A DNA stretch of 64,000 bases, taken from positions 2,124,501 to 2,188,500 of the forward strand of contig NC_010424.1 in the NCBI RefSeq assembly GCF_000018425.1, in the 5' to 3' direction. The first letter of the stretch is position 1. Every line of letters starts with the position of its first letter. Origin of the DNA: Candidatus Desulforudis audaxviator MP104C (GTDB taxonomy: Bacteria; Bacillota; Desulfotomaculia; Desulfotomaculales; Desulforudaceae). Made by a program: the position numbers and the translations under genes. The notes under the pieces were generated by a model. That model saw nothing but the letters and a program-made list of their open reading frames with translations. It searched no databases and had not been told where the DNA came from. Shown in pieces: positions 612-14,886 of this stretch.

Positions 612-627
612 AAATCAAAAAAGCTAA

Positions 628-722
628 CCACCCATTCCCTCCGCTGGCATGACCCAGGTCAGGTTCCAAGGGTAAAGCGCGCGCACGCTTTTCTCAGCCC
701 GTTTCCGGGCACCCCCATGGGT
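628..722 (-). promoter_or_regulatory. TPP riboswitch (THI element)
   Basis: The minus strand carries the conserved THI blocks in order: GGGGTGCC, GGGCTGAGA, ACCCTTGGAACCTGA, CTGGGTCATGCCAGCG and GAGGGA. The outer stem CCCAT (717-721) pairs with ATGGG (631-635). It lies directly upstream of a thiamine synthesis gene in the same direction, so the ligand and the regulated gene agree. Confidence 0.97.
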
Positions 723-860
723 AACCGGTTTGGTCTTTATTCTCAGTCTAAGGCGTCAAATCCTGCACCGGCAAGATGAAGCGGCACCCTAAAAGTGCAT
801 CCCGGGATTTACCGCCGCCGTTCCCCGTTGGCCAACAGTTCCGCGCCCTTGTTTATGTCT

Positions 861-3450: not shown

Positions 3451-4782
3451 TTAAAACTTGGTCAGGTACTCCTCCAGCTCCCACGGGTGGATCTGGCACC
3501 GGTACCGGTCCCACTCGATCCGCTTGGCCTCCAGGTACCGGTTGAACACGTGTTCCCCCAAGGCCCGGCGCATCAGCGCACTTCCCTGGAGTTCCCCCAG
3601 CGCCTCCCGTAAGTCCTCGGGCAAAACCCCGATGTTCAGTTCCCGCCGCTCCTCCTCGGTCATGACGTAGATGTTCTGGTCACAGGGCGGGGGCGGGGCC
3701 GTCCTTTTCTTGATGCCGTCCAGCCCGGCCTGGAGGCAGACGGCCAGCGCCAGGTAAGGGTTGCAGGCCGGATCGGGGCTGCGCAGCTCAATCCGGGTGG
3801 ACATGCCCCGTTTGGCCGGGATACGAATCAGAGGGCTGCGGTTGCGGTTGGACCAGGCGATGTACACCGGCGCTTCATATCCGGTAATCAGCCGCTTGTA
3901 GGAGTTAACCGTCGGGTTCAATACGGCAGCCATCGCCCGGGCGTGTTCCAGGAGGCCCCCGATGTAGTACAGGCATTCCGTACTGAGCTGGGTTTCGGTC
4001 GCCGGATCGTAAAAGGCGTTCACCCCGTTCCGGACCAGCGACTGGTTCAGGTGCATCCCCGAACCGGCCACGCCGAACAGGGGTTTGGGCATGAAAGTGG
4101 CGTGCAGCCCGTGGCGCTGGGCCACCACGCGGACCACAAACTTGAAGGTCAGGATCTTGTCGGCAACATCCAGGGCATCGTCATACTTGAAGTCAATCTC
4201 GTGCTGCCCGGGAGCAACTTCGTGGTGGGAGGCCTCGATTTCGAAGCCGAGTTTTTGCAGGGTCAAAACCATGTCCCGGCGTGCCTGCTCACCGTGGTCC
4301 ACCGGCGCCAGGTCGAAGTAACCCGCCCGGTCGTGAGTCTGGGTGGTCGGTGCGCCTTCTTTGTCGACGTGGAACAGGAAAAACTCCGCCTCCGGCCCGA
4401 CGTACATGGTATAGCCCAGCGCGGCCGCCTCGGCGACGGCGCGGCGCAGCACGTAACGCGGGTCGCCCTCGAAAGGGGTGCCGTCCGGGTTGTAGATGTC
4501 GCAAATCAGCCGGGCCACCGCCCCGTCCTGGGCCTGCCAGGGGAAAACGACGAAGGTGTTCGGGTCCGGACGGAGGTACATGTCGGATTCCTCAATGCGC
4601 ACAAAACCTTCGATGGAGGAGCCGTCAAACATCAACTCGTTGTTGAGTGCCTTGTCCAGTTGGTCAACGGTGATGGCCACGTTTTTCAGGACGCCGAAGA
4701 TGTCAGTGAATTGCAGACGGACGAACTCGACCTTGTGTTCCTTGGCTAACAGGCGTACATCCTCGGTTGAATAATGATTCAA
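3451..4782 (-). CDS. glnA: Glutamine synthetase, type I (copy 1)
   Basis: A 443-residue type I (alpha) glutamine synthetase, joining ammonia and glutamate at the cost of ATP. Active-site motifs are intact: [10 protein letters not shown], the metal site [30 protein letters not shown] with the metal His, ITGYEAPVY with the flap Glu, and [17 protein letters not shown]. No adenylylation-type tyrosine loop is obvious, as usual for Firmicutes. The start is read as TTG at 4782 because GGAGGAGAGGG lies 7 bases upstream; a longer frame would start at 4884 without a ribosome site. It is the last of three glutamine synthetase genes in this region. Confidence 0.95.
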
Positions 4783-4965
4783 GCGGCAACCCTCTCCTCC
4801 GTGTAATTCATCTGGGGAAACCGACCGGTTCGGCGGCTTCCCCGATAAATATACCACACCCGGCATGATTTTTACATATTTCAAGGGGCCACAATCCCCG
4901 GAAGGGACCTGAACACACGCACGGATAAGGAAGGCCCGTTGAGATCTCTTATTCCGTCGTCACCG

Positions 4966-5024: not shown

Positions 5025-5765
5025 CTAATGGGTGTACAGCCGCCCGTACGGGCGGTGTGACACCGGAATCAGCTTGTGGAATTCGGCGGCCCGGACTCCG
5101 GCGGGGTCCCGCCCGAAGTGCCGGCAGAACTCGTCCAGGAGCGGATCCAGAAACCGCCGATCCGCCTCGTCCAGTTCAAAGAGTTTTACTTCTTTGCCCA
5201 GGGTGTGCTCTTCCGGCCGGCCCCGGAGATAGATCACCCCGCCGTGCATGCCGGTCCCCAGGTAATCCCCGGCTAGGGGTTCGCCCTCAGCCCGGTCCAA
5301 TCCCAGGAGCACCAGGCGGCCGCCGGCCATGTATTCCCCGAAAAAGGCGCCCGCCGTGCCCCCAACCACGATCACGGGCACCAAGTCCTTGTATTCCTTC
5401 ATGTGGATGCCCACCCGGTAGCCCACGTTCCCGCGGATGAACAGTCTGCCCCCGCGCATCCCGTACCCAAGAACGTCCCCCGCGCTGCCGTGGACCACCA
5501 CCGTCCCCGAATTCATGGTGTTGCACACCCCGTCCTGCGCGTTGCCCCGGACCGTGATCGCCGGACCGTTCATAAAAGCGGCCAGGTCGTTTCCCGGCAC
5601 GCCGTTGATTACGATGCGCACGTCGGGGACTTCCAACCCGGTACCGATGTACCGCTGGCCGTTTACGTTTTCCAGCCGGAAGTCAGTTTCCCCGGCCCTG
5701 ATCGCCTCCCGGATCCACTGGTTGAGCTGCCGGTAATGCACACCGCGGGCGTCAATCTGCAGCAT
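5025..5765 (-). CDS. Glutamate synthase, GXGXG domain subunit
   Basis: This 246-residue protein is the C-terminal beta-helix (GXGXG) domain of glutamate synthase as a separate chain. Repeated Gly motifs are visible (GNAQDGVCNTMNSG, GSAGDVLGYGMRGG, GNVGYRVG, GGTAGAFFGEYMAGG). In fused bacterial GltB this domain is structural and helps the ammonia tunnel. Its gene follows the FMN-domain and amidotransferase-domain genes in the same direction, so the three chains probably form one enzyme, as in archaea and some Clostridia. The ATG at 5765 is the only reasonable start. Confidence 0.88.
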   Translation of the reverse strand: MLQIDARGVHYRQLNQWIREAIRAGETDFRLENVNGQRYIGTGLEVPDVRIVINGVPGNDLAAFMNGPAITVRGNAQDGVCNTMNSGTVVVHGSAGDVLGYGMRGGRLFIRGNVGYRVGIHMKEYKDLVPVIVVGGTAGAFFGEYMAGGRLVLLGLDRAEGEPLAGDYLGTGMHGGVIYLRGRPEEHTLGKEVKLFELDEADRRFLDPLLDEFCRHFGRDPAGVRAAEFHKLIPVSHRPYGRLYTH

Positions 5766-5863
5766 CGGCCACCTCCCCCTCTCTTCGGCGTTTTTGCTTC
5801 ACCTACCCGGCGGACTGCCGACGACCAACAAGCGCCGCCGGCCGCATTCAACCCACTCCTCCC

Positions 5864-5891
5864 GTCGACCGACGACCGACCACCGACGACC
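5864..5891. repeat. Short degenerate tandem repeat (CGACCGACGAC unit)
   Basis: The spacer between the GXGXG and FMN genes contains GTCGACCGACGACCGACC followed by ACCGACGACC: imperfect repetitions of a CGAC/CGACC unit. No gene, terminator or motif is recognised in the rest of 5766-5892. Confidence 0.55.
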
Positions 5892-5892
5892 A

Positions 5893-7485
5893 TTAATTGC
5901 CTGCGTTTTTGATCCCGAGGACCCGCAGATCGGCGTTCGAAAGGCCGACGCCGCGCAGCCGGAGGCGGCTGCCCCGCAGGCTTTCCACGGCGTTCAGACC
6001 GAGCGCGCCTAGGATCTCCTTCAGTTCCAGCGACCAGCCCCGGATCAGGTTGGTCAGGTTCTCGGCCGCCCGGTCCGGGTCGAGCCTCTGGGTCAAATGG
6101 GCTTTTTGGGTGGTGATGCCCCAGCTGCAGTTGCCGGTATAGCACTTCTGGCAGAGGCGGCAGCCCATTGCGATGAGGGCGGCCGTGCCGATCGCCACCG
6201 CGTCGGCCCCCAGGGCGATCGCCTTGGCCACGTCCCCGCTGTGGCGGATGCCGCCGGACACCACCAGCGAAACCTGGTTCCGGATGCCCTCCTGGCGCAG
6301 CCGGTCGTCGACCGCGGCCAGCGCCATTTCGATCGGAATCCCGACGTGGTCCCGGATGGCCAGTGGCGTGGCCCCAGTGCCGCCCCGGAACCCGTCGATG
6401 GTGATGATATCGGCCCCCGCTCGGGCGATGCCGGAGGCGATGGCCGCCACGTTGTGCACCGCCGCGATCTTCACCGAAACCGGCTTCGCGTACTCGGTGG
6501 CTTCCTTGAGAGCGTAGATCAACTGGGACAGATCCTCAATGGAGTAGATGTCATGGTGCGGCGCCGGGGATAAGGCGTCGCTGCCCACCGGAATCATTCG
6601 GGTCTTGGACACGCCCTCATCCACTTTCTCCCCGGGAAGGTGCCCGCCGATGCCCGGCTTGGCCCCCTGCCCGATCTTGATCTCCACCGCCGCGCTCCGC
6701 CGCAGGTAACCCGGATTGACCCCGAAGCGGCCCGAGGCCACCTGCACGATCATCCAGTCGGCGAAGGGGTAAAGGTCCTCGTGCATGCCACCCTCGCCGG
6801 TGTTCATCACGATACCGCAGGCCTTCGCGGCCCGGGCCAGCGCCTTCTGAGCGTTCAAACTGATCGCCCCGTAGGACATGGCCGGGAAAACCAGGGGAGT
6901 TTCCAGGCAGACTGCAGGCGCCAGCTTCGTTTTCAGCACCGGCCCCTCCGGCCCGGGCTCGAATTCAAGTCCGTCCGGCCGCGAACCCAGGTAGGTCCTG
7001 AGTTCCATCGGCTCCCGCAAGGGGTCGATGGACGGGTTGGTCACCTGGCAGGCATCGAGCACTATGTGGTCAAAATAGCTGAAATAGGCCTTATCGTTGC
7101 CCGCGCCGGTCAACACCATACCGCCGGTGTTCGACTGCAGCCAGATGTTCTTCAGGTACTCCGGCCGCCAGTGGTGGTTCCCCCGGTAGGCCAGCGGATT
7201 CGCCTGGACGCTGATCGCGCCCTCCGGGCAGTGGCTCACGCAGTAGTGACACTGGACACACTTGTGGTGGTCGGCGACCACCCGGTCGGGAACGTTTTCC
7301 TTGATCCTGGCGAACACCTGCTGCAGGTCCCCCTGACCGTGCTTGAAAACACCCATGGCTTCCTTCCAGGCGCCGTGCGCGAACTTGAGAGTCCCGAAGC
7401 CGCAGCCGCGGACGCATCCCCCGCAGCGCCGGCAACGGCTCTCGTCGATGTGCACCAGGTATTCGGGAGGTAGGTAGTTGCTCAT
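5893..7485 (-). CDS. Glutamate synthase, FMN-binding central domain with N-terminal ferredoxin module
   Basis: A 530-residue protein. Residues ~15-100 carry two 4Fe-4S motifs (CRRCGGCVRGC and CVQCHYCVSHC). The rest is the FMN-binding glutamate synthase barrel: GEGGMHED, IKIGQGAKPGIGGHLPG, DGFRGGTGATP, and a cysteine cluster CRLCQKCYTGNC for an iron-sulfur centre. It reduces 2-iminoglutarate to glutamate; the ferredoxin module suggests electrons come from ferredoxin or a partner flavoprotein. This is the archaeal-style split arrangement. Its ATG overlaps the stop of the amidotransferase gene (7482-7485), indicating translational coupling. Confidence 0.92.
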   Translation of the reverse strand: MSNYLPPEYLVHIDESRCRRCGGCVRGCGFGTLKFAHGAWKEAMGVFKHGQGDLQQVFARIKENVPDRVVADHHKCVQCHYCVSHCPEGAISVQANPLAYRGNHHWRPEYLKNIWLQSNTGGMVLTGAGNDKAYFSYFDHIVLDACQVTNPSIDPLREPMELRTYLGSRPDGLEFEPGPEGPVLKTKLAPAVCLETPLVFPAMSYGAISLNAQKALARAAKACGIVMNTGEGGMHEDLYPFADWMIVQVASGRFGVNPGYLRRSAAVEIKIGQGAKPGIGGHLPGEKVDEGVSKTRMIPVGSDALSPAPHHDIYSIEDLSQLIYALKEATEYAKPVSVKIAAVHNVAAIASGIARAGADIITIDGFRGGTGATPLAIRDHVGIPIEMALAAVDDRLRQEGIRNQVSLVVSGGIRHSGDVAKAIALGADAVAIGTAALIAMGCRLCQKCYTGNCSWGITTQKAHLTQRLDPDRAAENLTNLIRGWSLELKEILGALGLNAVESLRGSRLRLRGVGLSNADLRVLGIKNAGN

Positions 7486-8585
7486 ACGGTCACACCTTCT
7501 TCCAGCCGGGCGATAGCCATTTCTCCGGCCCGGATGCTCCCTACCTCGTCCAGGTCCTCGGCGATCACCCGGAGGGCGCTTTCCTCGCTCCCCATCAGGA
7601 TGAGGTCGCCTTTTTTGCCGATAACCATGGGCCGTAGTTTGATCCGGTCATTAAGACCGATCATGGCGCCTTGAAAAGCCACAATCACGCTGAACGGGCC
7701 GTTCAGCATCGCCGGGCCGTAGACCCGGCGCAGGGCGGTGTACAGTTCCCGCTCGCGATCATCCATCCGGTCGATGACTTTCCAGAAAGGCGGCGCCAGG
7801 GCCCGGCACACCAGGTCCAAGGGGATGCCGTGGCGCCGGTGCAAAAGGTCGAAAAGGTAGGCGATCACCTCGGTGTCGGTCTGCAGTTCCAGGCAGTAAC
7901 CGAACATCTCTAGATACCGCTTGTTGATGCCGTAAGAGGAGATTTCCCCGTTGTGGACCACTGACCAGTCGAGTACCCCCAGCGGGTGGGCGCCGCCCCA
8001 CCAGCCCGGAGTGTTAGTCGGGAAACGGCCGTGCGCCACCCATATGTAACCCTCGTACTCCTCCAGACGGTAGTAGCGGGCGATGTCCTCGGGGTATCCC
8101 ACGCCCTTGAAGACGCCCATGTTCTTACCGGAGGAGAATACGAAGGCGCCGGGGATCTCCCGGTTCACCGTCATCACGAAGGCGGTGACGTAGTCGTCGT
8201 CTTCCCGGAGCCCGTTCGCCCCGTCTTCCCGCACGGGCCGGACGAAATAACGCCACAACACGGGCGCCTCCCCGATCTGCGGCAGCGGCCGCGTCGGGAT
8301 CGGTTCGGACTGGGCCACGTTGAAGTGGCTGCGCAGGTTATCCTCGGTATCCACGCGCGCCTGCGGGGTTTCGTACATCAGGTGCAGGGCGTAAAGGTCC
8401 CGGTACTCCGGATAAATCCCGTAGGCGGCAAACCCGCCCCCCAAACCGTTTGAACGCTCATGCATGCAGGCGATAGATCTGGTAATGGCCTCGCCGTTGA
8501 AACGGATCCCCTTCGTGCTCATGATTCCGGAGATCGCGCATCCCGAAGGGATCCTCACCATTCCTTCCCGCACATCTTCACCCAC
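7482..8585 (-). CDS. Glutamate synthase, class II glutamine amidotransferase domain subunit
   Basis: A 367-residue stand-alone class II amidotransferase (GltB N-terminal domain) that hydrolyses glutamine and would feed ammonia to the FMN subunit. Motifs: SGCAISGIMS near residue 14-23 (Cys16 as probable N-terminal nucleophile after removal of a propeptide), HERSNGLGGGFAAYG, HGRFPTNTPGWWGGAHP, WSVVHNGEISSYG and TDTEVIAYLFD. The start is uncertain: GTG at 8585 is given, but GTG or ATG codons a few residues inside are also possible. The stop overlaps the next gene by four bases. Nothing is recognised in the 152-base gap to glnA copy 2. Confidence 0.9.
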   Translation of the reverse strand: MGEDVREGMVRIPSGCAISGIMSTKGIRFNGEAITRSIACMHERSNGLGGGFAAYGIYPEYRDLYALHLMYETPQARVDTEDNLRSHFNVAQSEPIPTRPLPQIGEAPVLWRYFVRPVREDGANGLREDDDYVTAFVMTVNREIPGAFVFSSGKNMGVFKGVGYPEDIARYYRLEEYEGYIWVAHGRFPTNTPGWWGGAHPLGVLDWSVVHNGEISSYGINKRYLEMFGYCLELQTDTEVIAYLFDLLHRRHGIPLDLVCRALAPPFWKVIDRMDDRERELYTALRRVYGPAMLNGPFSVIVAFQGAMIGLNDRIKLRPMVIGKKGDLILMGSEESALRVIAEDLDEVGSIRAGEMAIARLEEGVTV

Positions 8586-8737: not shown

Positions 8738-10069
8738 CTAGTAGTTGACCAGGTAACGGTCGATCTCCCACGGAGTGATCCGGATACGGTACTCGTTCCA
8801 CTCGGCCGTCTTGGCTTCGATGAACTTGGTGTAAATGTGCTCGCCCAGGGCCTCACGCATCACCGGGTCGGCGCTCATTTCCTTGATCGCTTCCTCCAGG
8901 CTCGCCGGCAGGCTGGTGATGCCCCGCTCCATCCGGTCCGCGTCGGTGATGTGGTAGATGTTGATCGGGAACCGCGGCGGCGGGTCGATCTTTTCTCTGA
9001 TACCCTCCAGGCCGGCCGCCAGGTTCACCGTCAGGGCCAGGTACGGGTTGCAGGCCGGGTCGGGGTTGCGCAGTTCTACGCGGGTCGACAGGCCCCGCTT
9101 CTGTGGAATCCGGATGAGCGCGCTACGGTTCCCTTCGGCCCAGGCCACGTACACCGGCGCCTCGTAGCCCGGCACCAGCCGCTTGTAGGAGTTGACCGTC
9201 GAGTTGGTGATCGCCGCCATCGACCGGGCGTGTTTCAGAAGCCCGCCGATGTAATAGTAGGCCTCCGCACTCAGGCCGTCCGGCCTCGAGGCGTCGTGGA
9301 AAGCGTTCTCCTCGCCCCGGAACAGGGACTGGTTCATGTGCATTCCCGAACCGTTGATCCCGAACACCGGTTTGGGCATAAAGGTCGCGTGCAGCCCGTG
9401 ACGCTGCGCCAGCGTCCGCACCACGAACTTGAAGGTGACGATCTTATCGGCGATGTCCAGCGCGTCCGAGTGCTTGAAGTCGATCTCGTGCTGGCCGGGC
9501 GCCACTTCGTGGTGCGAGGTCTCGATCTCGAAACCCATCTCCTCCAACGCCATCACCATCTCCCGCCGGGCATTCTCGCCCTTGTCGATCGGGGACAGGT
9601 CAAAGTAACCGGCCTTGTCGTGGGTTTCCAGCAGTGGCTTCCCGTCGGCGTCGACATGAAACAGGAAGAACTCCATCTCCGGTCCGGCGTGCATGGTGTA
9701 ACCCATACTCTTGGCCCGGTCCAACATCCGGCGCAGGCAGTTCCGCGGGCAACCGGCGAACGGTGTGCCGTCGGGATTGTAGACGTCGCAGATCAGGCGC
9801 GCCACCGCCCCGTCCCGGGGACGCCACGGGAAGATCACAAAGGTGTTCGGGTCCGGGCGCAGGTACATGTCCGATTCCTCAATCCGGGCGAAACCATGGA
9901 TCGAAGACCCGTCGAACATCAGTTCGCCGTCGAGGGCCTTGTCCAGTTGTTCCACCGGGATGGCGACATTCTTCAAGACACCCAAAATATCGGTGAACTG
10001 CAGCCGGACGAACTTGACCCCCAGTCTCCTGGCCTTCTCCAGGATTTCCTGTTTGACCGCGGTTTCCAC
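8738..10069 (-). CDS. glnA: Glutamine synthetase, type I (copy 2)
   Basis: A 443-residue type I glutamine synthetase with all catalytic motifs: [52 protein letters not shown], and [17 protein letters not shown]. It is very similar in length and motifs to copy 1. The start is GTG at 10069 with GAAAGGG 10 bases before. It heads the cluster with the three glutamate synthase genes, giving a GS-GOGAT unit. Its leader (10070-10308) contains two hexaloop hairpins and a terminator, so expression is probably controlled by ANTAR antitermination. Confidence 0.95.
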
Positions 10070-10108: not shown

Positions 10109-10158
10109 AAAAAACGCCCAATCAAAGGGGTGGTTTCACACCTCCTTATGAAAGGGCG
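10109..10158 (-). terminator. Leader terminator upstream of glnA copy 2
   Basis: Minus strand: the outer stem CGCCC/GGGCG encloses AAGG-A-GGTG / CACC-CCTT with a TGAAAC loop, followed by six T. Its 5' arm overlaps the 3' arm of the upstream hexaloop hairpin, so the two structures are mutually exclusive, which is the layout of an antitermination switch. Confidence 0.85.
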
Positions 10159-10195
10159 CCATTGCCTCTTATAAAGCGGGTACCTCCGTGTACCC
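10146..10195 (-). promoter_or_regulatory. Tandem ANTAR-type hexaloop hairpins (leader A)
   Basis: First hairpin at 10178-10195: stem GGGTAC/GTACCC with loop ACGGAG. Second at 10146-10174: stem TTATAAGAGGC / GCCCTTTCATAA (one A.C mismatch, one bulge) with loop AATGGC. Both loops are six bases with A at position 1 and G at position 4, the signature described for ANTAR-domain RNA targets. The second hairpin overlaps the terminator. The ANTAR response regulator gene lies immediately upstream. Confidence 0.85.
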
Positions 10196-10308: not shown

Positions 10309-10887
10309 TCAGACGTTGTGCGCCAGGATGATGGCTTCGGCCACCGCCCGCATGGAGAGCCGCCGGTTCATGCTCTGCTTTTGAATACGACGGAAGGCCT
10401 CGGCCTCCGTGAGCCCCAACTGGGACATCAGGATGCCTTTGGCCCGTTCCACCACCTTCCTGGTGTCCAGTTCCTCCTTAAGCTTCATCACTTTCCGCTC
10501 CAGGTCCATCACCTCCGCATAGTGGGCCAGAGCCACCTCCACCACGGTGAGCAGGCTGACTTCATCAACCGGTTTGGGCAGGAAACCGGCCGCCCGCACC
10601 TCCCGGACGCGGGCCATCATCTCCCGGCCAAAGACGCCGGACATCAGGATGACCGGGGCCAGGCGGTCGTCGTGTACGATCCGGGCCAAATCCAGGCCGT
10701 TGACCCCGGGCAGGGAAGCTTCCGCCAACACCAGGTCGGGCTGCCGGTCACGGATCATCTTCAGGGCCGTGATGCCGTCCTCGGCTTCACCGATCACCAG
10801 ATACTCCGCCTGGCTGAGCATTCCCTTGATGTTGGTTCTGCCGCGCGCGTCCGGGTCCACCAGGATCACCCGCTCCTGCAGTGCCAA
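10309..10887 (-). CDS. ANTAR response regulator 1 (NitR/EutV-like), phosphoacceptor Asp replaced by Glu
   Basis: 192 residues: receiver domain (~1-120), coiled linker (~122-140), and a C-terminal ANTAR RNA-binding domain (RKVVERAKGILMSQLGLTEAEAFRRI pattern, residues ~142-190). ANTAR proteins bind paired hexaloop hairpins and stop transcription termination. In the receiver the acidic pocket (VDPD) and conserved Lys105 (FLPKPV) are present, but the phosphorylated Asp is replaced by Glu56 (PDLVLAEASLP). It may be constitutively active or use another signal. Its own leader has a similar switch, and glnA copy 2 follows. ANTAR regulators next to glnA/glt genes are known from Clostridium (NitR). Confidence 0.9.
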   Translation of the reverse strand: MALQERVILVDPDARGRTNIKGMLSQAEYLVIGEAEDGITALKMIRDRQPDLVLAEASLPGVNGLDLARIVHDDRLAPVILMSGVFGREMMARVREVRAAGFLPKPVDEVSLLTVVEVALAHYAEVMDLERKVMKLKEELDTRKVVERAKGILMSQLGLTEAEAFRRIQKQSMNRRLSMRAVAEAIILAHNV

Positions 10888-10943: not shown

Positions 10944-10981
10944 ATGCCCCGCCAGACCGGACCACGGTCTGGCAAGGGCAT
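10944..10981 (-). terminator. Leader terminator upstream of ANTAR regulator 1
   Basis: Minus strand: a long stem ATGCCC-TT-GCCAGACCG / CGGTCTGGC-G-GGGCAT with a short TGGTC turn, followed by TTTGTATTTG. It overlaps the 3' arm of the second hexaloop hairpin (10974-10991), so the leader can switch between two folds. Confidence 0.75.
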
Positions 10982-11013
10982 CATCGCCTTTACCGGATAC
11001 TTCATCGTACCCG
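10974..11013 (-). promoter_or_regulatory. Tandem hexaloop hairpins (leader B), ANTAR-like
   Basis: Hairpin 1 at 10994-11013: stem CGGGTAC/GTATCCG, loop GATGAA. Hairpin 2 at 10974-10991: stem AAAGGC/GCCCTT (one A.C mismatch), loop GATGAT. Spacing and terminator overlap match leader A. Both loops have G at position 4 but G instead of the usual A at position 1, so the match to the ANTAR consensus is partial. Confidence 0.6.
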
Positions 11014-11095: not shown

Positions 11096-12673
11096 TTATC
11101 CCAGTATCCGGTCGACTTCCGCGGCGTCAGCGTCCATCAGGTAGGAAATGCCGGTGATCTCGGCTGCCTCTGGGGTGAGCGCCACCAGGTCGTCGCGGGT
11201 GATGTACTCCAGCGCGAACTTGCGGGCGCCGCACATAAACTGGCGTAGACCCTGGGCCAGCCGGGCGAAATAGGTATAGACGCCGATCGCCCCTACGGGC
11301 AGCCGCTCGTAATCGGCCCCGAGCTGAGCCTTCAACGTGGTGGCCATGATGAACACCCGTTCGATCCGGTTCCCGTAGGCCTGGTACTCGGGCAGTACTC
11401 GTCCCTGCTTGATCGACTCACCCACCGTTTTCGCGACCATGGCCGCGGCAAGCGGGGAGCGGGCCATCCCGATAGCCTTGACGTAGGGCGCGCTCAGGGC
11501 GAAGCCCTTGAACATGTGGTCCTCCAACGTCAACCCGCCGGCGATGCAGATGGGTGGAATGTAGGCCCCCTTCGCCGCCAGCCGGTCGCAATACCGGGTC
11601 AGCAGCGCCTGGAGATACAGGGTGGGCATCCCCCACTCGTTCATCATCCGCCACGGGCTCATTCCGGTGCCGCCGCCGGCACCGTCCACTGTTAAAAGGT
11701 CCAGCCGGGCGTCGGACGCGAACTTCACGGCCCGGGCCAGGTCGGCCGGCCGATAGGCGCCCGTCTTCAGGAAGACGTACTTGGCTCCCGCCCGGCGGAG
11801 TGCCTCAACCCGCTCGGCGAAGGACTCCCAATCCACCATCCCGATCCGGGAGTGGCGCTCGAATTCCCGCAGGGCACCCTCCCGGTAGGCCTCCTTGACC
11901 ACTTCGTCCTCCGGGTCGGGTAAGACGATGTAACCGCGCTTTTTCAGTTCCAGGGCCCGCTCGATGCTGTTGACCTTCACCTCGCCGCCGATGTCTTTGG
12001 CCCCCTGACCCCACTTGATTTCCACCACTTCAACGCCAAGCTTCTCGATACAGTATTCCTGCACGCCCAGCCGGGTGTCCTCGACGTTGGCCTGCACCCC
12101 GATGAAGCCGGCACCGTTGTACCAGTCCTGGAAGGCGCGCACCCGTCCTTCCATGTTCGGCGAGTATACCACGCGCCCGTTCCTGATCTCCGAATTCGGG
12201 TCCATGGCGCAAACGTTTTCCCCGATCAGGATCCCGGCCCCGGCCAGGGCCACGCCGGCGGCCAGGTGGTCCCAGTTGTTCGCGGCAACATCGGTGGAGC
12301 CCATGGCCGGAACGACAACCGGGAAATCCAAATGCAGGTCGCCGTTGGCACCCAGGCTGGTTTTAAGGTCCACGGCCGGAAAGATGGCTTTGTCCGGGTC
12401 CGGTTCAATACCAACCGCGCCTACGGCCGTACCCATGATATTCAAGTGTGAGTAGTCAACCGGGTACTTTTTCTGGCCGGCCGAGGTAGTCTTGCCGAAC
12501 GGTTTGGGGTAAAGCAATTCCTTCCCCCGCACGGCCGAGCGCGCGATTTCACAGAATCCGGGGCAGCCGTCCAGGCAGGTCACGCACATCCCGCTCTGGG
12601 GGCACTTGCTATCCCCGGTGCGCAGCCTGGTGGTGGTGGCTGCGGTGGCGTTGGTGCCACTACTCAGATGCAT
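11096..12673 (-). CDS. FMN-binding glutamate-synthase-like protein with N-terminal Cys cluster
   Basis: A 525-residue protein with the FMN-binding barrel of glutamate synthase (GENVCAMDP, IKWGQGAKDIGGEVKV, VDGAGGGTGMSPW, CIAGGLTLEDH) but without amidotransferase or GXGXG parts. The N-terminus has five cysteines in about 18 residues (C24, C30, C33, C37, C41), probably for an iron-sulfur centre different from the ferredoxin module of the other FMN protein here. The exact reaction is not known; relatives are annotated as glutamate synthase or FMN-dependent dehydrogenases. It is directly downstream of the third glutamine synthetase. The ATG at 12673 has GGAGAG 9 bases upstream. Confidence 0.85.
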   Translation of the reverse strand: MHLSSGTNATAATTTRLRTGDSKCPQSGMCVTCLDGCPGFCEIARSAVRGKELLYPKPFGKTTSAGQKKYPVDYSHLNIMGTAVGAVGIEPDPDKAIFPAVDLKTSLGANGDLHLDFPVVVPAMGSTDVAANNWDHLAAGVALAGAGILIGENVCAMDPNSEIRNGRVVYSPNMEGRVRAFQDWYNGAGFIGVQANVEDTRLGVQEYCIEKLGVEVVEIKWGQGAKDIGGEVKVNSIERALELKKRGYIVLPDPEDEVVKEAYREGALREFERHSRIGMVDWESFAERVEALRRAGAKYVFLKTGAYRPADLARAVKFASDARLDLLTVDGAGGGTGMSPWRMMNEWGMPTLYLQALLTRYCDRLAAKGAYIPPICIAGGLTLEDHMFKGFALSAPYVKAIGMARSPLAAAMVAKTVGESIKQGRVLPEYQAYGNRIERVFIMATTLKAQLGADYERLPVGAIGVYTYFARLAQGLRQFMCGARKFALEYITRDDLVALTPEAAEITGISYLMDADAAEVDRILG

Positions 12674-12746: not shown

Positions 12747-14084
12747 TTAATACCGGGCCAGATAAGTGTCGATTTCCCAGGGGTGCACCGCAGTCAGGAA
12801 ACCCAGCCACTCTTGTTCCTTGAACTCGGCATACCGGCGGCAAAACTCATCCCCAAGCGCCCCGCGGAGCACGGTGTTGGTGCCAAAGGCCGAAAGCGCC
12901 GCTTCCAGGTGCCGGGGCAGGCCGTTGGTGCGCACCGCGTCCCGAAGCGTGTCCAGGTCCCCGTCCACCGTGCCGGGTACGGGCTCCGGTAGTTCGAGCC
13001 CGCTGTCCACCCCGTCCAGGCCGGCGGCGAGGATCCCCGCCAGCGCCAGATAGGAGTTGGCCGTCGGGTCCGGGCTGCGCAACAACAGGTGCGGCTCGTC
13101 TCCCGCCGGTGCCGGCATCCGGAGCATGGTGGCGCGGCTGTCGGTTGACCAGGCAGCCAGCACCGGGTGGAAACCGTCCGGAACCAGGCGCTTATAGGAA
13201 TTAACCAAGGGATTGGTCACGGCCGCCAGGGCGGGCGCGTGGGCGAGCAGCCCGGCGGCGAACCGGCGCGCGGTGGTGCTGAACCGGCCGGGATCCTCCC
13301 CGTCCGCGAACAGGTTTTCCTCTTCCCGCCAGAGGGTCAAGTGCAGTTTCACTCCCGAACCGCGGCGTCCGGCCAGCGGCCGCGGCATAAACGAAGCGTG
13401 CAGGCCGTGCCGCTGGGCCACGGTCCGGACCACAAACTTGAAGGTGGTGATCCGGTCTGCCATTTCCAGCGCCTCACCTTCACCGAGGCCGATCTCGTGC
13501 TGGCCCGGCGAAACCTCATGGTGCGACGACCGGACCTTGATCCCCATTTCCTGCAGGGTGAGGACCATGTCCCGCCGGGCGTTTTCTCCCAGGTCCACCG
13601 GAGTAAGATCGCAGTATCCGGCCTGGTCATGGGTCACCGTGGTGGGCAGGCCCTGTTCCCCGACGTGGAAGAGAAAAAACTCGATTTCGGCGCCGATCCG
13701 GAACCACCAGCCGCGCTCCCGCAAGGCATCCAAGTTCTTGCGAAGTATGGTCCGGGAACAAGTGGGATAAGGATTCCCGTCCAGATCGGCCGCCTGGCAG
13801 ATCAGGCGAGCCACAGCCCCGTCCCGGGGCCGCCAGGGAAAGATCACAAAGGTTTCCGGGTCGGGGATAAGCAGAATCTCTCTTTCCCGACTGCCGCTAA
13901 AACCCTCGATGATGGCGCTGTCAAAAGTGAGCCGGCCTTCCAAGGCCCGGTTCAGTTCCTCTATGGTAATGGCCAGGTTCTTAAGGGAACCGGTGAAGTC
14001 GGTGACCTGCAGCCGGACGAATTTCACGCCGGTTTCCGCGGCCAAGGCCAGGACTTCACCGGCCGCCTGGCGGTTGATTTCCAC
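12747..14084 (-). CDS. Glutamine-synthetase-like protein (copy 3), active site degraded
   Basis: 445 residues with the full type I glutamine synthetase fold, but three catalytic positions are changed relative to the other two copies. The metal His of GSGMH is Lys246 (GSGVKLHLTL), the flap Glu of GYEAPV is Phe305 (PDGFHPV), and the metal Glu of IELR is Leu334 (HLLLR). The motif DGSSI is DSAII. The first metal site (E133, E135, E190, E197) is kept. It probably does not make glutamine; a regulatory or glutamate/ligand-sensing role is inference. Start is GTG at 14084 with AAAGGAGGAA upstream. It is preceded by an ANTAR regulator and a switch-like leader. Confidence 0.9.
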   Translation of the reverse strand: MEINRQAAGEVLALAAETGVKFVRLQVTDFTGSLKNLAITIEELNRALEGRLTFDSAIIEGFSGSREREILLIPDPETFVIFPWRPRDGAVARLICQAADLDGNPYPTCSRTILRKNLDALRERGWWFRIGAEIEFFLFHVGEQGLPTTVTHDQAGYCDLTPVDLGENARRDMVLTLQEMGIKVRSSHHEVSPGQHEIGLGEGEALEMADRITTFKFVVRTVAQRHGLHASFMPRPLAGRRGSGVKLHLTLWREEENLFADGEDPGRFSTTARRFAAGLLAHAPALAAVTNPLVNSYKRLVPDGFHPVLAAWSTDSRATMLRMPAPAGDEPHLLLRSPDPTANSYLALAGILAAGLDGVDSGLELPEPVPGTVDGDLDTLRDAVRTNGLPRHLEAALSAFGTNTVLRGALGDEFCRRYAEFKEQEWLGFLTAVHPWEIDTYLARY

Positions 14085-14107: not shown

Positions 14108-14155
14108 AAAAAGAACGCCCCAAGCAGACTCCGCACGGGAATCTACCTGGGACGC
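14108..14155 (-). terminator. Leader terminator upstream of glutamine-synthetase-like gene 3
   Basis: Minus strand: GCGTCCCAGGTAGATTCC and GGAGTCTGCTTGGGGCG pair around a CGTGC loop and are followed by TTCTTTTT. Its 5' arm shares GTCCC with the upstream AACGGC hairpin, so the two cannot form together. Confidence 0.8.
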
Positions 14156-14192
14156 CGTTGCCCCGAATTACGTTATGAGGCCTAACCGATTC
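14149..14192 (-). promoter_or_regulatory. ANTAR-type hexaloop hairpin (leader C)
   Basis: Hairpin at 14149-14164: stem GGGGC/GTCCC, loop AACGGC with A1 and G4 as required for ANTAR targets. A second stem just upstream (14165-14192: GAAT..GTTA / TAAC..ATTC) has a seven-base loop GGCCTCA, so the first hairpin of the usual pair is atypical. Confidence 0.65.
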
Positions 14193-14194
14193 TT

Positions 14195-14224
14195 ATTATA
14201 TTGCGAGAAGCCGACAAAAAGCAA
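14195..14224 (-). promoter_or_regulatory. SigA-type promoter for glutamine-synthetase-like gene 3
   Basis: -35 TTGCTT (14219-14224), 18-base spacer, -10 TATAAT (14195-14200), placed right after the stop codon of ANTAR regulator 2. Transcripts from here would begin with leader C. Confidence 0.8.
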
Positions 14225-14228
14225 GTCT

Positions 14229-14825
14229 TTATTTTGGGGCCTTCTTCTCCGGCTCAACGGAGAACTCTTCAATTACCGCCCGAGCCATTGCGGCCAGCGG
14301 CCGGCAGGTGTCCATGCTGAGTTTCTGCAGATACCGGTAAGCCTCCGGCTCGGTGAATCCTTTTTTTTCCATGAGCAGACCCTTGGCCCGCTCAACGAGT
14401 TTTCTGGACTCCAGGGTCTTTTTCAGCCGCAGGTTTTCCTGCTCCAGGGCCAGAAGACGCTTGAAATTGGACCAGGCCGCCTCCACCGCCAGGTACAGAT
14501 CATCATCGCTGTATGGAACCAGCAGATAGCTGAAGAGCCACCCCGTACCCGCCAGTTGCGACAGCCTGGTGCAGTCCGCGGTAACGAATACAATCGGGGC
14601 CAACCGGTGATCGTCGATAACCTGGGCCACTCCCAGTCCTCCATAGTCGGGGATGGCTGGATCCAGCAAAACCAAGTCGGGCTGGGTCTCAAAGGCCAGG
14701 CGTAACACGTCCTTAGCCTCCCACACCCGGCCGATCACCAGGTGCCCGGCCTGCAGGAGTTTGGCCGAAAGCTTCTTGGCCTCGGCCTCGTCCTTGACCG
14801 CGATCAGGACGCGCAGTTGCGGCAT
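14229..14825 (-). CDS. ANTAR response regulator 2, conserved receiver Lys missing
   Basis: 198 residues: receiver domain (~1-115), coiled-coil linker, and C-terminal ANTAR domain (RKLVERAKGLLMEKKGFTEPEAYRYL pattern). The phosphoacceptor Asp55 is present (PDLVLLDPAIPD) but the conserved Lys of the YxxKP motif is replaced (SYLLVPYSD). This is the reverse of regulator 1, which keeps Lys and lacks Asp. The ATG at 14825 has GGGGAGG just before it. It sits directly upstream of the degraded glutamine synthetase gene and its hexaloop leader, which is the likely target. Confidence 0.9.
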   Translation of the reverse strand: MPQLRVLIAVKDEAEAKKLSAKLLQAGHLVIGRVWEAKDVLRLAFETQPDLVLLDPAIPDYGGLGVAQVIDDHRLAPIVFVTADCTRLSQLAGTGWLFSYLLVPYSDDDLYLAVEAAWSNFKRLLALEQENLRLKKTLESRKLVERAKGLLMEKKGFTEPEAYRYLQKLSMDTCRPLAAMARAVIEEFSVEPEKKAPK

Positions 14826-14886
14826 TGACCCTCCCCTTCTCCGGCACTGCCAGTATTGTAACACGCTCCGGCCCGGGGTGACATAG

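Follow-up and report, generated by a model that had tools for sequence, protein, structure and literature searches.

A glutamine synthetase paralogue with a replaced ammonium site as a candidate regulatory partner of glutamate-forming enzymes under probable ANTAR-type control

The window, that is, the whole stretch of 64,000 nucleotides analysed here, contains exactly three glutamine synthetase (GS) genes, which are all those of the genome (2,349,476 bases, one contig). Two of them, GS1 and GS2, are intact and served as controls, and the third, GS', encodes a paralogue with several active-site residues replaced; it lies between the genes for an ANTAR-domain regulator and a glutamate-synthase-like protein. 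A three-gene glutamate synthase (amidotransferase, FMN/4Fe-4S, GXGXG) sits downstream of GS2. The features of the region are:

3451-4884, minus strand: GS1, intact glutamine synthetase (control)
5025-8585, minus strand: split glutamate synthase (class II amidotransferase, 7482-8585; FMN/4Fe-4S, 5893-7485; GXGXG, 5025-5765)
8738-10069, minus strand: GS2, intact glutamine synthetase (control)
10154-10194, minus strand: ANTAR-type dual hexaloop RNA in the GS2 leader (26.9 bits)
10309-10887, minus strand: ANTAR1, second ANTAR regulator, with a degenerate receiver
10976-11011, minus strand: ANTAR-type dual hairpin in the ANTAR1 leader, followed by a terminator (12.7 bits)
11096-12673, minus strand: FMN_small, stand-alone FMN glutamate-synthase-like protein with an N-terminal Cys cluster and no amidotransferase domain
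12747-14084, minus strand: GS', GS paralogue predicted to be catalytically defective, 445 aa, GTG start
14108-14155, minus strand: intrinsic terminator, a 19-pair stem followed by a T-run
14149-14164, minus strand: antiterminator hairpin GGGGCAACGGCGTCCC with hexaloop AACGGC (A1, G4)
14195-14220, minus strand: promoter-like sequence for GS', between ANTAR2 and GS', with TATAAT at 14200-14195 (placed by eye and scoring under the consensus-scan threshold)
14229-14864, minus strand: ANTAR2, ANTAR-domain regulator whose receiver phosphorylation residues are not conserved in the family

The GS' reading frame (complement of 12747-14084) runs through 445 codons without interruption or stop, and the Pfam domains Gln-synt_C (PF00120, 345.7 bits) and Gln-synt_N (PF03951, 69.5 bits) span the full length of the protein, which aligns with GS2 without gaps at 49% identity (BLASTP). 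The AlphaFold model is a confident GS fold (pLDDT 86.8, pTM 0.91), and its closest structure in a Foldseek search was P. polymyxa GS (7tfa, TM 0.89); GS' thus carries both domains and the fold of the GS superfamily. It nevertheless misses the GlnA cut-off (NCBIfam TIGR00653, 429.15) at 385.5 bits, whereas GS2 passes at 575.2. In Salmonella numbering, His269 is replaced by K246, Glu327 by F305 and Glu357 by L334, exactly as the preliminary description had given them from comparison with the intact copies. Ser53 is also replaced (I58), as is the glutamine-feedback Arg (G64), and all five residues are retained in GS1 and GS2. D50 is the only member of the GlnA catalytic set (D50, E327, H269, E357 and Ser53) left in GS', the other four being replaced. 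The metal-1 ligands Glu131, Glu212 and Glu220 are kept along with Glu129, as are substrate arginines 321, 339, 344 and 359. With the Pfam domains at full length and the metal-1 ligands present, the earlier view that the fold and first metal site survive is borne out; the claim that the active site has been lost applies to the ammonium and metal-2 sites, but not to the metal-1 ligands and arginines, which are still there. The residue losses support the description of GS' as non-catalytic for GS chemistry, and we consider it highly probable that the protein is without this activity.

A quick, midpoint-rooted tree of 126 GS proteins, calculated with 18 active-site columns left out, separates 53 GS' rows from all active copies at a branch with SH-aLRT 100. 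Within this clade Ser53 is lost from every member, its position now being V, I or A; Glu357 is lost from 44 of the 53, and His269 from 28. Other positions are retained: Glu129 in 43/53, Glu131 in 51/53, Glu212 in 52/53, and both R321 and R339 in 53/53. Because Glu327 is lost in 52/53 clade members, mostly to Leu, and kept in 68/68 sampled active paralogues, its loss is beyond chance. Those 68 paralogues also all possess His269 and Glu357; the set was defined by Glu327 and Glu357, leaving His269 as the independent part of the result. The GS1 and GS2 sets, which were defined by gene order and not by residues, are also intact. Judged from these columns, the hallmark common to the GS' family is loss of the ammonium site (Ser53 and Glu327), and not of His269, which was rejected in this role as His is still present in 25/53. 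One subclade retains Glu357 and indeed all metal ligands, and the ammonium site was therefore probably lost first, ahead of the metal-2 ligand; members of this subclade could still be ligases. New residues have become fixed at several positions, including F to C at 158 and G to S at 56 (each in 51/53), which points to a pocket that was remodelled rather than drifting. The D50 loop and E flap, at the subunit interface, are among the most rewritten parts. The dN/dS of GS' against its relatives is 0.14-0.17, with slightly lower values for GS2 (0.08-0.13), and by these sequence statistics GS' is a functional protein under purifying selection.

Three species of genus g86 (L166, L168, L171) carry a 377-aa GS' homologue directly upstream of FMN_small; these shortened proteins are 87-93% identical among the three species, match active GS at only 39-40% of its conserved positions, and are missing most of the active site. 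In five Lachnospiraceae GSs (L119, L120, L122, L127, L146), encoded at loci with ANTAR-like genes, Glu327 was lost separately on the tree, and the evolution of GS pseudoenzymes near ANTAR genes therefore seems recurrent. Orthologues with the same substitutions beside ANTAR genes, which the preliminary description had proposed to look for, were found in part: loss of Glu327 and Glu357 is kept near ANTAR and FMN genes, but that of His269 in only about half.

Gene order in relatives (n = 60 sampled) is ANTAR2-GS'-FMN_small, usually followed by ANTAR1 and GS2, and it recurs in many families. A GS' profile search of 113 genomes of the order, with matches accepted at 700 bits or more (the next matches scored 688 or less), recovered 69 copies in 68 genomes. 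FMN_small follows directly on the same strand in 65 of the 69, at a distance of 26-1002 bases; the remaining four comprise three copies cut off at contig ends and a second copy (G030) that faces a glutamate dehydrogenase (GDH) gene. Co-occurrence of GS' and FMN_small across genomes is strong by a statistic that ignores phylogeny (Fisher p 2e-11), and one locus (L052, genome G006) has ANTAR1, GS2 and the split glutamate synthase but none of the trio ANTAR2, GS' and FMN_small. FMN_small occurs in 19 genomes of the order that lack GS' and in 107 of 398 genomes of the phylum, often with no GS gene within the surrounding 12 kb, and GS' is therefore dispensable for FMN_small there. Two further clade members (G036 and G037, below the 700-bit cut) occur in the order histidine kinase, OmpR-type regulator, GS', NADP-GDH, with no ANTAR gene; the GDH at loci of this type passes the NADP-GDH equivalog cut-off, and the scan for the kinase domain covered one of these two loci. 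The operon-like arrangement spans 5751-10836 in L044 and 12189-17118 in L040.

FMN_small belongs to a strongly conserved family and is glutamate-synthase-like by Pfam (46.9 bits), and Foldseek returned mainly FMN hydroxy-acid dehydrogenase barrels; a search by sequence found no relative in the PDB. Its Cys-rich N-terminus carries a conserved Cys motif, CPQSGMCVTCLDGCPGFCE in the window protein. At L054, near-identical palindromic pairs (aggggACAGTCcccct / aggggACTGTCcccct) at 7874 and 9541, before FMN_small and before ANTAR1, form a repeat element. What the contexts of GS' have in common is, on annotation, an enzyme for which glutamate formation from 2-oxoglutarate is established or expected. 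The placement of GS' with an ANTAR regulator and an FMN gene, as first described, thus holds in orthologues, where both adjoin it, but the constant neighbour is the glutamate-forming enzyme, given the GDH loci without ANTAR. Although linkage to FMN_small can reflect co-regulation and not physical interaction, we hold with moderate confidence that GS' partners or regulates the adjoining enzyme.

The leader of GS' contains a hairpin with arms GGGGC and GTCCC around the loop AACGGC, and the 5' strand of the terminator starts with the 3' arm of this hairpin; the two structures are therefore mutually exclusive. An A1/G4 hexaloop hairpin overlapping an intrinsic terminator is the arrangement of an ANTAR attenuator, and ANTAR regulons of this kind have been described in Desulfotomaculum (Ramesh et al. 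2012, PMC3369931). A search for perfect dual hexaloops found none before GS', the conserved single hairpin having emerged from alignment of the leaders; the dual-hairpin model scores 11.5 bits and spans two hairpins, the first of which has a 7-base loop and is not conserved. The hexaloop element is present with at most three substitutions in 48 of 71 GS' leaders inspected. Among 35 distinct rows, pairing reaches 98.9% of cells in the antiterminator and 92.7% in the terminator; the former shows 13 double changes, and the latter has double changes in 4/7 pairs. These percentages are inflated by selection of rows on the motif and on terminator pairing of at least 5/7. Pairing and covariation of both hairpins exceed those of shuffles and slid controls. 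An exact match to the 16-base element was found in 15 of 60 genomes; each has a single match, which lies in the GS' leader, against 2 matches for the reversed control, and this holds for the window's genome as well. Given this covariation, GS' itself is very likely a target of ANTAR-type attenuation, with its expression governed by terminator/antiterminator switching; ANTAR2, being adjacent, is probably the protein that reads the leader.

The motif upstream of GS2, GS1 and ANTAR1 genes in relatives is a different one, with two hexaloops, and the ANTAR1 leader of the window has hexaloops GAUGAA and GAUGAU, with G at the first base where A is expected; this may indicate a different regulator or a weakened autoregulatory site. 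Where GS' is missing, the hexaloop element directly precedes FMN_small (L187, with a variant in L191), and an attenuator of the same kind is found in the FMN_small leader of several genomes without GS'. An Rfam scan over 26 kb gave no match to an ANTAR family and returned only a TPP riboswitch (RF00059, window 619-726, minus strand, 77.1 bits).

The same leader could be read differently, with GS' acting on ANTAR2 itself: a ligand-responsive GS-fold sensor would sequester or activate the pseudo-receiver protein in the style of AmiC and AmiR, and would thereby control antitermination of its own operon. Several observations are in keeping with this, namely the position of ANTAR2 immediately upstream of GS' at almost every locus sampled, a receiver without conserved phosphorylation residues, as expected if a partner protein regulates it, a hexaloop leader specific to GS', and the precedents of AmiC/AmiR and of the Bacillus GS, which controls GlnR and TnrA by binding their C-tails. 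A degenerate receiver and an adjacent partner gene are thus both present, as in AmiC-AmiR-type systems. However, in a system of that type an ANTAR unit would not be expected without its sensor, whereas ANTAR2-leader-FMN_small units lacking GS' occur at L187 and L191; ANTAR2 can therefore work without GS' there, which weakens GS' as its obligate partner, and the GS' adjoining GDH has no ANTAR neighbour. Control of the ANTAR regulator, as the preliminary description had suggested, is possible from adjacency and the degenerate receiver but is made weaker by these units, and overall we regard this reading as rather unlikely.

The residues that bind effectors in other GSs provide an opportunity to consider which ligand GS' might sense. 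In the Firmicute enzyme (FBI-GS), glutamine is held by Glu304 of the E flap and by Arg62, which also shape the docking site for GlnR and TnrA (PMC9249791). Both contacts are absent from GS', which has F305 and G64, and across the family 1/53 members have Glu at the E-flap position and 9/53 have Arg at the other; glutamine as a ligand by the Bacillus mechanism is weakened by these losses. In M. mazei GlnA1, 2-oxoglutarate is bound between subunits by F24, R26, S38, R87, R172', R173' and S189', and R66 is required for glutamine feedback (PMC11957540). The GS' equivalents of F24, R26, R87, R172, R173 and S189 are F22, R24, R85, R170, R171 and S187; the alignments are ungapped over the R87 and R172/R173/S189 stretches, with a constant offset of -2 once tags are allowed for, tag lengths being our estimate and the F24/R26 equivalence relying on the same offset. 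All six residues are invariant in 53/53 GS' and present in the 377-aa homologues of g86 as well as in the five Lachnospiraceae GSs, all five of the latter being without the feedback Arg. The seventh, S38, is Asn in all three GS proteins of the window. Conservation in nearly all sampled active paralogues extends to five of the six, which may serve subunit packing, and the case for 2-oxoglutarate therefore rests on R85 and the retention pattern: the R85 position is Arg in only 51/68 active paralogues and Gln in GS1 of the window. Because the glutamine-sensing residues are lost and those of the 2-oxoglutarate site kept, 2-oxoglutarate is the likelier ligand of the two, although its assignment from residue retention is tentative.

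We propose that GS' is a GS-derived regulatory protein without GS activity that would work with the neighbouring glutamate-forming enzyme, here FMN_small (11096-12673) and in some relatives NADP-GDH. It would report the level of 2-oxoglutarate by way of the site between subunits at which archaeal GS is activated, and could pass the signal to its partner through its oligomeric state or shape, while the antitermination leader of ANTAR type, with the neighbouring ANTAR2 as its probable reader, would set the amount of GS'. Our confidence is moderate that GS' is such a non-catalytic, probably 2-oxoglutarate-responsive regulatory partner under ANTAR control. A broader and speculative proposition is that old and widespread bacterial GS pseudoenzymes are dedicated, PII-like 2-oxoglutarate sensor subunits of glutamate-forming enzymes (of the FMN_small type or NADP-GDH), and that the change was repeated independently in Lachnospiraceae.

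Co-assembly of GS' with active GS1 or GS2, tuning their activity or feedback sensitivity, would suit an enzyme whose active sites lie between neighbouring subunits, and both the 49% identity to GS2 and the full-length GS fold predicted for GS' (pTM 0.91, TM 0.89 to P. polymyxa GS) fit this idea. Yet GS' tracks FMN_small or GDH and not GS genes, the interface elements (D50 loop and E flap) are among its most rewritten parts, and the 377-aa shrunken forms could hardly fit a GS ring, all of which makes such mixing improbable. It is also improbable that GS' is an enzyme of another reaction, for example a gamma-glutamyl ligase for a non-ammonia amine with a hydrophobic pocket: the directed substitutions (V, I or A for Ser53, in most cases L for Glu327, and C for F at 158 in 51/53), the retained glutamate-binding arginines and metal-1 ligands, and the subclade with all metal ligands would suit this, but the metal-2 ligand Glu357 is gone in 44/53 and His269 in about half, the window GS' included, and the shrunken homologues are without nearly all catalytic residues. 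That GS' is a decaying duplicate carried along with its operon, as stepwise loss of catalytic residues within the clade might suggest, is hardly credible, and the pseudogene reading was rejected: where the preliminary description would have taken random decay among orthologues as the sign of a pseudogene, we found frames open throughout, dN/dS of 0.14-0.17, and one old clade (68/113 genomes of the order) with a clade-wide pattern in which the conserved positions differ from those of active GS.

Few enzymes of nitrogen metabolism have been studied as much as GS, for which a second role in sensing is known. Moonlighting of GS as a regulator is not new, nor is an inactive GS-like protein in vertebrates, lengsin of the lens, a GS homologue described as without activity. 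We found no relevant paper in the open-access literature on an inactive bacterial GS, alone or with ANTAR or 2-oxoglutarate, and in the same literature no precedent for a GS pseudoenzyme that spans a bacterial clade and is linked to glutamate-forming enzymes; no mention of an inactive GS paralogue was found in Ramesh et al. 2012 (PMC3369931). If the proposal is correct, sensing and catalysis have been separated within one fold, in a GS clade without ammonia chemistry but with the allosteric 2-oxoglutarate site. Anaerobic Firmicutes would then gain a carbon/nitrogen sensor outside the PII family, and GS' would offer a simple system for what the 2-oxoglutarate site of GS does alone. For annotation and flux models, GS' genes should not be counted as glutamine synthetases.

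Among known systems, lengsin belongs to an unrelated lineage and differs in role. AmiC-AmiR and NasS-NasT share with the GS' locus an ANTAR protein with a degenerate receiver, a leader attenuator and an adjacent candidate sensor, but here the candidate sensor is a GS-fold protein, whose gene is missing from some loci with the ANTAR gene. The Desulfotomaculum ANTAR target RNAs (PMC3369931) likewise have hexaloop hairpins that overlap terminators before nitrogen genes, whereas the GS' leader has one strong hexaloop hairpin, the first hairpin being non-canonical in most genomes. FBI-GS with GlnR/TnrA (PMC9249791) is also a GS-fold regulator, and GS' is altered at the same regulator-binding loops; however, FBI-GS is enzyme and sensor in one protein, whereas the GS' paralogue appears to be dedicated and non-catalytic, near ANTAR or GDH genes. 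With the 2-oxoglutarate-activated GlnA1 of M. mazei and the Methanothermococcus GS (PMC11957540), GS' shares the interface-site residues except S38 (Asn), but its catalytic residues are lost and the Phe relay from the 2-oxoglutarate site to ATP is broken (F202 being L/I). Finally, GS' resembles type I-alpha GS (B. subtilis and P. polymyxa GlnA) in fold, length, metal-1 ligands and substrate arginines, and differs in having Glu304 of the E flap, Arg62, the metal-2 Glu and the D50-loop Ser replaced; from these residues, neither glutamine synthesis nor a Bacillus-type response to glutamine would be expected of GS'.
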